This document shows positions 33,779-37,842 of a stretch of DNA of 41,741 nt, piece after piece. How positions within the stretch are numbered: the first letter of the stretch is position 1; every line of letters begins with the position of its first letter. Where the stretch lies: positions 1 through 41,741 of the IMG/VR virus record IMGVR_UViG_3300047378_000946; one strand, written 5' to 3'. Source of the stretch: a virus. The translations under genes and the position numbers were made by a program. The notes under the pieces are model-generated. The model saw only the letters and a program-made list of their open reading frames with translations. It was not told where the DNA came from and did no database searches.

Positions 33779-34255
33779 ATGATACATTATATCTTTGACC
33801 TCGACCACACTGTTATCGATTCAAGCCACCGCCAACACACTAAACCAGACGGATCGCTTGACCTTGACAACTGGCGCGAGAACTGCACACGGCAGAAAAT
33901 CATGGCCGATAAAATTCTGCCTCTGGCTGATCTTATGCGCTCGGCATGGGATCGCAAGCATAACGTGATTATCTGCACGGCTCGCGTTCTCTCAATCTGG
34001 GATCATGTTTTTCTGGCTGATAATAATCTGCGCGCTCATGCGATACTATCACGCGCTGAGGGCGATAATCGTGGCGATGCTGAAATGAAGCGCGACCTTT
34101 TATTGAAGCACTTTTCATCACTCAAAATTCCGGTCGCACGTTGGACTCGAAGCGCGGTATTTTATGACGATAATCAAGCGGTGCTTGACATGGCCGACCG
34201 ACTCGGTATAATTACCCGTAACGCAATCAAACTCAATAAGCAATTAGGAGCGTAA
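33779..34255 (+). CDS. HAD-family phosphatase
   Basis: A 158-residue HAD protein. Motif I is FDLDHT (D7 nucleophile, D9, T11), motif II is in IICTAR (T67), and motif III/IV is VFYDDN (D130, D131) near the C-terminus. The size and the CTAR and FYDDN patterns are close to the phosphatase half of polynucleotide kinase/phosphatase enzymes, but no kinase domain is present. It lies 3 bases before a DEDDh exonuclease, suggesting a role in nucleotide or nucleic-acid end metabolism (inference). Codon use is richer in GCG/CGC than in the tail genes. Confidence 0.82.
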   Translation: MIHYIFDLDHTVIDSSHRQHTKPDGSLDLDNWRENCTRQKIMADKILPLADLMRSAWDRKHNVIICTARVLSIWDHVFLADNNLRAHAILSRAEGDNRGDAEMKRDLLLKHFSSLKIPVARWTRSAVFYDDNQAVLDMADRLGIITRNAIKLNKQLGA

Positions 34256-35104: not shown

Positions 35105-35152
35105 GCCAAAAATTTCTTGAAAAAAAAAGCTTGACTTCTTGAAATTTTTGGC
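35105..35152. repeat. Inverted repeat, 12 bp
   Basis: GCCAAAAATTTC (35105-35116) and GAAATTTTTGGC (35141-35152), 24-base spacer with a run of nine A residues. Directly next to the parS-like site and the first direct repeat. Confidence 0.7.
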
Positions 35153-35307
35153 GCGGGGGCGCCAGTAGTAAGTCAACGATTATATTCAGGTGGGCTCCAT
35201 TTAGATTTGCGTGAATTTACACCAAAAGGGGTAGTCTTTTATGAGAAATCGGCGCGGGCGCGCCAGTAGTAAGTCAACGACTATTTTCCAGTTGGTGCCT
35301 CGCGCCG

Positions 35308-35336
35308 ATTATAGTGCAGTACCGATGCGATGTCAA
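35308..35336 (-). promoter_or_regulatory. Consensus minus-strand promoter without a downstream gene
   Basis: TTGACA (35331-35336), 17 bp, TATAAT (35308-35313). It points leftward toward the plus-strand genes 33,021-35,031, so it would make antisense or non-coding RNA. Confidence 0.8.
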
Positions 35337-35442
35337 GTCTTTTTTTCAGCTTTGGTGCATTTAGTTTAATTCGTGCAGGTCTCTGCGCCGAAGCAAGTAG
35401 TAAATAAACTATTTAAATTTACTCAGTGCCCTGGCGGCGCCG

Positions 35443-36001: not shown

Positions 36002-36319
36002 ATGACTGAAGTAACCAGAACCCCTAACTACACAGACGAGATGGTCAACGCTATGGTAGCAGACTATCAAGATAATCCAACAAAAGACACAGTTGCAAAA
36101 CTAGCGTCTGAGTTCAACAAAAGCACACGATCAATCGTTGCAAAACTAGTACGCGAAGGCGTCTACGTTGCAGCTCCTCGAGTAACCAAGACTGGTGCTC
36201 CTGTGATCCGTAAGAGCGAGATTGTCACTCAGATTCAGGACGCACTCGGTGTAGAGTTGCTTACTCTTGAGAAGGCTTCTAAAGCTGACCTAGAACGACT
36301 CCTAGTAGCAGTACTATGA
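36002..36319 (+). CDS. GcrA-like small DNA-binding protein, paralogue 2 (105 residues)
   Basis: The conserved pattern is YTDEMVNAMVADYQDNPTKD, LASEFNKSTRSIVAKLVREG (about residues 38-57) and a C-terminal domain (IRKSEIVTQIQDALGVEL, LEKASKADLERLL). Same two-domain plan as the genes at 33276 and 37522. The helix-turn-helix with (K/R)SI(I/V).KL.REG resembles GcrA-type and Myb/SANT-type DNA binding. A longer in-frame start at 35936 was rejected because it lies in the promoter. It overlaps the next small membrane gene by 4 bases. Confidence 0.75.
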   Translation: MTEVTRTPNYTDEMVNAMVADYQDNPTKDTVAKLASEFNKSTRSIVAKLVREGVYVAAPRVTKTGAPVIRKSEIVTQIQDALGVELLTLEKASKADLERLLVAVL

Positions 36320-36402
36320 GTAGGTATGAGAAGTACAGTGGTTTAGTATGGTTTGTAGCCGTACTATTCCTCTGGCCAGCACTAATTGTAGTGTTTGGTT
36401 AA
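36316..36402 (+). CDS. Small membrane peptide (28 residues)
   Basis: MSRYEKYSGLVWFVAVLFLW followed by PALIVVFG. One membrane helix after a short charged start. The ATG overlaps the previous stop (ATGA) and the gene ends 18 bases before the next promoter -35. Too short for family recognition. Confidence 0.5.
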   Translation: MSRYEKYSGLVWFVAVLFLWPALIVVFG

Positions 36403-36420: not shown

Positions 36421-36449
36421 TTGACGATTTGGTTAAATGTTAGTATAAT
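36421..36449 (+). promoter_or_regulatory. Promoter for the non-coding RNA
   Basis: TTGACG (36421-36426), 17 bp, TATAAT (36444-36449), preceded by AAAAAATAGTTC. Predicted start about 36456. Confidence 0.85.
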
Positions 36450-36455
36450 AATGTT

Positions 36456-36821
36456 TCTTTCAAAGGCACTACGATCAGCTTGGTACTCTCTGCAGCGAGA
36501 ACGCCTCCACTGGTGCCTTTACAGTAAGTCCAGTAACGATGCTTGAGTGATCTGATTAACCTTTGGTGTTCTTTGATCTCGCGGATGTACTGGCACAGCC
36601 TACTTCACAGGGCTGTCTAAAGCGTATGGTGTGTTGGGTTTTTGGATCTTTGTACCGAACAAAGGGAGGTTTGTGTGTTGTAGACTCTGTTGTATCCTGT
36701 CACAAAAATCATGAGTCGAGGTGCTTCTAACGGTGAGCCGAAGCAACGATTGTAGAGCGAGGCGGTCTCTCTTTCATCCATATTAAGTATCTATTTGCCC
36801 TCCTTGTGAGGGCATTTTTTT
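36456..36821 (+). ncRNA. Structured non-coding RNA of about 366 nt
   Basis: Bounded by its own consensus promoter and a strong intrinsic terminator, with no open reading frame of note inside. Helices visible by eye: AAAGGCAC (36462-36469) with GTGCCTTT (36513-36520), enclosing TCTC/GAGA (36487-36500); CCAGTA (36530-36535) with TACTGG (36588-36593); ACAGCC (36595-36600) with GGCTGT (36611-36616); CTTTGT (36648-36653) with ACAAAG (36659-36664); TGCTTC (36722-36727) with GAAGCA (36740-36745); terminator at the end. I do not recognise it as tmRNA, RNase P, 6S RNA or an intron. A large structured phage RNA class, possibly new, is a fair reading. Confidence 0.75.
36796..36821 (+). terminator. Intrinsic terminator of the ncRNA
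   Basis: TGCCCTC (36796-36802), loop of 5, GAGGGCA (36808-36814), then seven T residues (36815-36821). Confidence 0.9.
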
Positions 36822-37417: not shown

Positions 37418-37535
37418 AGACGATATTATCGAGAAGTGGGAAAGCGGTTGGACAGTGTATGAGATTGCAGAGCACTACTCCACACCCGTAGAGAATATAA
37501 TTAACATACTGGGGTTGGGAAATGAATTACACTGA
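37407..37535 (+). CDS. Tiny helix-turn-helix protein (42 residues)
   Basis: MKIKDDIIEKWESGWTVYEI, then AEHYSTPVENIINILGLGNE. Residues 14-38 read as a helix-turn-helix (GWTVYEIAEHYSTPVENIINILGL). A strong GGAGG lies 6 bases upstream (37396-37400). It overlaps the preceding gene by 11 bases and the following GcrA-like gene by 14. Likely a small DNA-binding regulator or half of a pair with the next gene. Confidence 0.65.
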   Translation: MKIKDDIIEKWESGWTVYEIAEHYSTPVENIINILGLGNELH

Positions 37536-37842
37536 TGAACAAACGCGTTATATAGTAGAGTATTACCAAATGCATCCTACTATGCAAACAGTAGAAACCC
37601 TAGCAGAAAATCTAGGAAAGAGTACAAAATCAATAATCGGAAAGCTATCACGGGAGGGCGTGTATGAAAGAGCTGTCTACAAGAACAAAAGCGGGGACTT
37701 ACCTGTCACGAAAGCTGAGATCGTTAGTAACATTGCTGAGAATCTGGGACTTGAGATTGAGAATCTCCTTGGCCTCGAAAAGGCTCCAAAAGCAACGCTC
37801 AAAACTTTGGAACTCGCAACGGGTGCGCAGAAAGTCGTATAA
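37522..37842 (+). CDS. GcrA-like small DNA-binding protein, paralogue 3 (106 residues)
   Basis: MNYTDEQTRYIVEYYQMHPT, LAENLGKSTKSIIGKLSREG (about 33-52), then VTKAEIVSNIAENLGLEIEN and LLGLEKAPKATLKTLELATG. The KSIIGKLSREG helix is the closest of the three to the GcrA-type recognition helix (NAVIGK.HRLG). The second domain matches the other two paralogues. The ribosome binding site is weak (GGGA), so translation may depend on coupling to the overlapping helix-turn-helix gene. A terminator follows 83 bases downstream. Confidence 0.75.
   Translation: MNYTDEQTRYIVEYYQMHPTMQTVETLAENLGKSTKSIIGKLSREGVYERAVYKNKSGDLPVTKAEIVSNIAENLGLEIENLLGLEKAPKATLKTLELATGAQKVV

Follow-up and report, generated by a model that had tools for sequence, protein, structure and literature searches.

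A candidate structured RNA gene in a phage lineage and a palindromic hairpin module that it shares with tmRNA and tRNA loci

A candidate RNA gene between two small DNA-binding protein genes

Does a stretch of phage DNA with a promoter, a terminator and no evident protein between them encode a structured RNA, and if so, what kind of RNA is it? The window that we analysed is a whole virus record of 41,741 bases (IMG/VR IMGVR_UViG_3300047378_000946), which carries tailed-phage genes for terminase, portal, a fused protease/capsid, tape measure and tail assembly, and which comes from an environmental bacterial virus, probably of marine origin. A sigma-70-type promoter on the plus strand (36421-36449) consists of TTGACG (36421-36426) and TATAAT (36444-36449), with a 17-nt spacer between the boxes and agreement with the consensus at 11 of 12 positions. 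It is followed by an intrinsic terminator (36796-36821, +) with a stem at 36796-36814 and seven T residues at 36815-36821. With the start set 7 nt past TATAAT, the predicted non-coding transcript extends from 36456 to 36821 (+) and is 366 nt long, reproducing the length that the original prediction had given for a stand-alone structured RNA. The longest sense frame in this stretch has about 56 codons. No reading frame is conserved across the homologues in 17 contigs described below, where stops and 1-nt indels break the frame and translated similarity is found in all frames. A conserved short frame, which would have counted against the original prediction, is absent.

The gene upstream (36002-36319, +) encodes a small DNA-binding protein of 105 amino acids that matches PHROG 1725/323 weakly, and its relatives precede the same slot in other phages, making it a syntenic anchor. 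A second small DNA-binding protein, with weak matches to PHROG 323/1725, is encoded downstream (37522-37842, +). The PHROG annotation of both flanking proteins is "D5-like transcriptional regulator / DNA-binding protein", and neither matches the Pfam GcrA domain at E ≤ 0.1, so we do not retain their earlier description as GcrA-like regulators. An overlapping 28-aa frame at 36316-36402 (+) has one hydrophobic segment (MSRYEKYSGLVWFVAVLFLWPALIVVFG), and a similar frame follows the anchor gene in L003, L004, L005 and L007. Farther upstream, the product of 33779-34255 (+) contains a polynucleotide kinase 3'-phosphatase (HAD) domain. The intergenic region 35150-35440 holds GGCGCGGGGGCGCCAGTAGTAAGTCAACGA-YTAT repeats that are conserved in L002, L004, L007 and L013, and perfect minus-strand sigma-70 promoters at 35336-35308 and 35471-35443 run into these repeats, an arrangement that suggests short minus-strand RNAs or operators.

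Minimum-energy folding was dropped as proof of structure, as the predicted stability of the 366-nt RNA (-98.8 kcal/mol) was no better than that of shuffled sequences (-104.3 ± 6.3 kcal/mol; z = +0.87). The "at least six helices" of the original prediction thus carry no weight by themselves; that the RNA is structured was borne out through covariation. Because the fold energy was uninformative, the question became whether homologues exist and whether they covary.

Rfam 15, where the original prediction had proposed to look, yielded no match at the gathering threshold across the whole window and, at E up to 10, weak chance-level matches on the terminator only. ARAGORN found no tRNA or tmRNA in the window and cmscan was likewise negative for tmRNA models, in agreement with the earlier view that this RNA is not a tmRNA; it has no tRNA-like domain, no tag frame and no match to RF00023, RF01849-RF01851 or RF04321. 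The models of GOLLD (RF02032) and ROOL matched neither the window nor the relatives carrying the slot, while the same search detected GOLLD in L276 at 213.8 bits. When the region was compared with isolate phages by BLAST, the terminator alone was matched, in N4-like and other enterobacterial phages, and the segment 36794-36822 is almost identical to the terminators of those phages. The RNA family had no match in 50,697 isolate phage records, and outside subscription papers and preprints we found no paper describing it.

A covarying core and exchangeable domains

Relatives were reached in IMG/VR through the 105-aa upstream protein, and further members through pattern scans. Besides the window, 17 phage contigs carry homologues, which we designate class 1: a related RNA lies directly 3' of the anchor gene in L002-L009, L013, L015, L016, L092 and L166, and the scans contributed four more (L073, the cut-off L147, L244 and L259). 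A downstream 54-aa protein was also used as an anchor and gave no homologues, and among bacterial genome contigs, four MAG contigs have a related anchor protein and none has a class-1 RNA. Every scanned homologue that retains its 5' end is preceded by an extended promoter context, AATARTTCTTGAC-N17/18-TATAAT, and a terminator follows wherever the contig extends that far. The RNA in the window likewise occupies the slot behind a small DNA-binding protein gene and comes with a sigma-70-type promoter and an intrinsic terminator of its own.

The class-1 RNAs share a conserved core, which corresponds to 36595-36721 (+) and is described by a 127-nt covariance model, R1. The window scores 124.9 bits (E 5e-26) as one of the ten sequences from which R1 was built. 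The model recovers the held-out L003, L004, L007/L092/L163, L008 and L147 at E values from 5e-13 to 2e-4, and it later recovered L244 and L259 as well. Both sides change in 16 of 17 pairs of the R1 alignment, and its covariation score is 0.523, compared with 0.166 ± 0.023 in shuffled alignments (0 of 500 as high) and at most 0.08 when the partners are slid, all for a structure-fitted alignment in which four members are weak matches (E 0.27-0.5). An unfitted MAFFT alignment gave 0.434 against 0.186 ± 0.025, again with none of 500 shuffles reaching the observed score and at most 0.15 with partners slid.

The core begins with an H-type pseudoknot (36595-36638, +), in which the helix ACAGCCT/GGGCTGT is accompanied by a conserved linker, CTAAAGCGTATGG, and the loop 36602-36609 pairs with 36630-36638. 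Helix 1 is paired in 100% of the cells of the MAFFT alignment, and a count made by hand found 12 different arm pairs among 13 sequences. For the pairing between loop and downstream strand, matched partners average 16.4 and mismatched partners 11.8, and none of 20,000 permutations reached the observed mean; the window's own pairing is the weakest in the family (10.6). Hairpin P3, CTTTGT-ACCGA-ACAAAG (36648-36664, +), is 98.6% paired with both-side changes in 5/5 modelled pairs, and in helix P4, GACTC/GAGTC (36683-36717, +), the outer 3 pairs covary strongly and the inner 2 weakly. Covariation in homologues, on which the original prediction had staked the structure, is thus present in the pseudoknot and in two hairpins. 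A core with compensatory changes in 17 other contigs and without an Rfam family also sustains the idea of a separate class of stand-alone RNA, and we conclude from these comparisons that the region is almost certainly a stand-alone gene for an RNA of a new structured family.

The gain and loss of whole domains between relatives accounts for the length range of class-1 RNAs, about 280 to 700 nt. Module A, a three-way junction, occurs in L002, L006, L007, L009 and L166, and module C in L002 and L005. Module B, as detected by its model R2, is limited within class 1 to the window and L002, module D is present in ten members, and the RNAs of L002 and L166 enclose a tRNA-Met upstream of the terminator. 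In the window, module D (36530-36593, +) is a helix, CCAGTA/TACTGG, that closes a conserved internal loop (CTTGAGTGAT...GATCTCGCGGA); in a hand alignment of 10 sequences the helix is 95% paired with 6 different arm pairs. Two additional pattern matches to module D outside class 1 were rejected as chance, being GC-rich coding-like DNA without the core. Near the 3' end, a small hairpin read from the sequence, AGAG-CGAGGCGGT-CTCT (36754-36770, +), has a conserved G-rich loop that stays constant while the stem becomes ATAG/CTAT in L003, L013, L015 and L016. A tRNA-like insert in the RNA of L015 (L015:3750-3820) has AGAGGTTCAAACCCTCT as its T-arm and six bases in its anticodon loop; the insert is missing from the close relative L013.

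The slot itself is more widespread than class 1. Promoter pairs follow the anchor gene in 65 relatives, and with one exception the two promoters are separated by about 280-1450 nt. These stretches mostly have no long sense frames, and about 60 related phages have an RNA-like slot, a count from which stretches containing long frames (e.g. L038 and L187) are excluded. As slot stretches are usually much larger, the RNA in the window is among the smallest occupants. One blastn component of 45 stretches (class 2) is distinct from class 1; its members are about 660-1450 nt long and have swapped domains (e.g. L012:1603-2550, L017:5637-6498, L168:4596-5597 and about 42 others). Of 67 pairs predicted for an alignment of 14 of them, 28 show compensatory changes, and small H-type pseudoknots can be recognized in the sequences. 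The two classes are kept apart because R1 gave no credible match on class-2 RNAs. At the gathering threshold, Rfam recognized nothing but tRNAs and one abiF RNA in twenty slot loci, and the class-2 RNAs of L012 and L017 had no match at E up to 1. There is no tRNA in the window; a tRNA-Met lies inside or beside the slot in L002, L166, L176 and L187. Those of L176 (5084-5159) and L187 (3012-3171, with a tRNA-Thr) are 3' of the anchor gene, and L187 also has an abiF RNA (RF03085).

A hairpin module shared with tmRNA, tRNA and GOLLD loci

Module B (36462-36520, +) is an exchangeable hairpin with an outer stem of 10 bp, a palindromic tip and two internal loops that are conserved. The window, which is in the training set of R2, scores 83.8 bits (E 1e-18). 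The module recurs with an identical core, AGCTTGGTAC-N12-GAACGCCTCC, in 18 IMG/VR contigs. The original prediction mentioned neither this sharing nor the larger RNAs that relatives carry in the slot. Ten of these contigs (L268, L269, L271, L273, L274, L275, L277, L280, L282 and L283) have it in the excised loop of a permuted tmRNA, bounded exactly by the CCA end on one side and the 5' GGGG on the other, a context that for L271 and L282 was read from the flanking CCA only. It is found inside or just behind a tmRNA in L270, L272 and L073, between tRNAs in L267, L278 and L279, between GOLLD (213.8 bits) and tRNA-Met in L276, and in a class-1 RNA in L281, which is the same contig as L002. The GOLLD RNA of L276 (107-640) encloses a tRNA-Arg and is followed by module B and the tRNA-Met in a phage tRNA array. 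In L073, a permuted tmRNA with the tag ANDDVYSLAA (1846-2158, -) lies beside the class-1 RNA and a tRNA-Trp, and between module B and the tRNA-Trp there is a tRNA-like sequence, GGAAGAG...CTCTTCC, with a T-arm and an enlarged anticodon loop. No module B was found in isolate phages or plasmids, and the additional matches to a relaxed pattern had no palindrome and looked like chance.

In all readable contexts, the sense strand of module B is the strand of its RNA neighbours. This agreement favours a role as RNA and disfavours a mobile DNA element. In an alignment of 15 sequences, 99.6% of cells are paired and both sides change in 9 pairs (0/500 shuffles), including compensatory changes in the outer stem. 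The tip in the window is the six-base palindrome CTGCAG (36490-36495, +), which we propose as a self-kissing loop. It is palindromic in 8/8 distinct variants, which use six sequences (CTGCAG, TTGCAA, ATGCAT, GTGCAC, GGCGCC and GGGCCC). Column shuffles give a frequency of 1e-5 for six-mers that are all palindromic and 0.004 for palindromic central tetramers; because most variants share the TGCA tip, the number of different central tetramers behind the test is three. In half of the variants the bases flanking the palindrome are unpairable, which places it within an eight-base loop. In the retroviral dimer-initiation-site hairpin (DIS) of HIV-1, which works on the principle proposed here, a loop of 8 or 9 nt likewise presents a 6-nt palindrome, a parallel that we treat as a lead only. 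There is no homology, and the internal loops flanking the tip are peculiar to module B.

Possible roles of the RNA and its relatives

We consider a family of phage structural RNAs that dimerise or oligomerise through kissing loops, acting like GOLLD and ROOL while standing outside both, to be the best explanation, holding it with about even confidence. The RNA in the window would be a compact form of a modular family kept in a fixed slot of the phage lineage, and the host sigma-70 RNA polymerase would transcribe it. The palindromic tip of module B would then make two copies kiss, giving a homodimer or a larger RNA assembly; from the sequence comparisons, we regard such dimerisation of the window RNA as an evenly balanced proposition. 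By analogy with proposals for the cages of GOLLD and ROOL, the assembly might scaffold or sequester ribosomes or other RNAs, a tentative suggestion that is clearly less probable than the pairing. For OLE and GOLLD, symmetric kissing loops have been argued from a loop tetranucleotide that switches between palindromes (PMC12286853), and the always-palindromic tip of module B is evidence of the same kind. Most class-1 relatives are without module B, which therefore cannot be a universal assembly element, and if assembly is general, other contacts would be needed there. Also counting against this explanation are the weak pseudoknot of the window (10.6) and an RNA far smaller than GOLLD or ROOL.

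Comparison with known systems places the family near these RNAs and apart from them. GOLLD forms a 14-mer cage held by self-kissing loops and ROOL an octameric cage held by kissing loops (PMC12286853). Like GOLLD, the class-1 RNAs are phage-encoded, structured and modular. GOLLD is found near or around tRNAs, tRNA-Met in particular, and in some relatives of the window a tRNA-Met lies inside or beside the slot; module B itself adjoins GOLLD in L276. However, there is no match by sequence or covariance model, GOLLD has at least 800 nt compared with 280-700 nt in class 1, the core pseudoknot differs, and class-1 assembly is something that we infer. ROOL is similarly a large ornate RNA of phages and prophages, often near tRNA islands, but it has another length and anatomy, and there is no Rfam match. 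Permuted tmRNAs (RF04321) occur in marine phages such as phage Melnitz (PMC9004378), and a number of those in IMG/VR contigs have module B in the excised loop (ten contigs) or within or behind the tmRNA (three). The RNA in the window has none of the tmRNA hallmarks. That it is an overly divergent member of a described family (GOLLD, ROOL, OLE, 6S or tmRNA) is thus extremely improbable: the setting is alike, with a phage, tRNAs nearby in relatives and an ornate structure, but neither the window nor the slot relatives have a gathering match although GOLLD was detected in L276, and even the larger class-2 RNAs of L012 and L017 went unmatched.

The strongest competitor, though still unlikely, is a trans-acting regulatory RNA with a single-stranded G-rich loop, which reads CGAGGCGGU in the window, resembles AGGAGGUGG in some relatives and would bind a C-rich target, such as the 16S rRNA 3' end or a host mRNA, or a protein. 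The constancy of this loop while its own stem varies, the consensus host-type promoter and the ribosome pull-down by GOLLD mentioned in PMC12286853 would all suit such a role, but an elaborate conserved pseudoknot exceeds what a presenting scaffold needs. The L006 loop AGGAGGTGG is complementary to the usual 16S rRNA 3' end; this complementarity is not family-wide, the window having GAGGCGGU only, and we rejected anti-Shine-Dalgarno pairing as a general mechanism because it is not conserved through the family. Less probable again is a transcript that serves chiefly as a precursor, like those of phage tRNA/tmRNA operons, with module B and its neighbours acting as signals for processing or protein binding; in the window it would be a remnant of such an operon. 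Its exact position between CCA and GGGG in ten permuted tmRNAs, its occurrence between tRNAs, the tRNA-Met within the RNAs of L002 and L166 and the tRNA-like piece in L015 are as expected of a processing signal. In L270 and L272, however, the helix capped by module B is located in the tmRNA or immediately behind it, where excision is unnecessary, the pseudoknot core covaries although the window and most relatives have no tRNA, and palindromic tips are unnecessary for processing. The strong turnover of domains between relatives, together with tRNA-like pieces that as read from the sequence have a 6-nt anticodon loop in L015 and an enlarged loop in L073, and a polynucleotide kinase 3'-phosphatase-like gene nearby (33779-34255), could also point to a decoy that is directed at RNA nucleases or host defence and whose rapidly evolving domains and defective tRNA-like pieces would absorb a host anticodon nuclease or RNA sensor. 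We think this quite improbable, as the RNA in the window has no tRNA-like part.

Returning to self-assembly through kissing loops, we speculate, with little confidence, that one place in the genomes of this phage lineage is reserved for modular RNAs that self-assemble and whose domains can be exchanged. Self-kissing module B would have been grafted onto tmRNA, tRNA arrays, the neighbourhood of GOLLD and a class-1 RNA, letting them dimerise and perhaps gathering phage tRNAs and tmRNAs in common RNA bodies during infection.

Together, the two classes are RNA families absent from Rfam and of a known kind, large or medium-sized ornate phage RNAs, to which an undescribed shared module is added. To our knowledge, few natural RNAs multimerise on their own, and their functions are poorly understood. 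Class 1, at 280-700 nt, is small enough for routine biochemistry, and the 59-nt module B is a sequence link between tmRNA, tRNA arrays and GOLLD. Module B would thereby offer a direct test of kissing-loop assembly in phage RNAs, with six natural palindromes as ready specificity controls.
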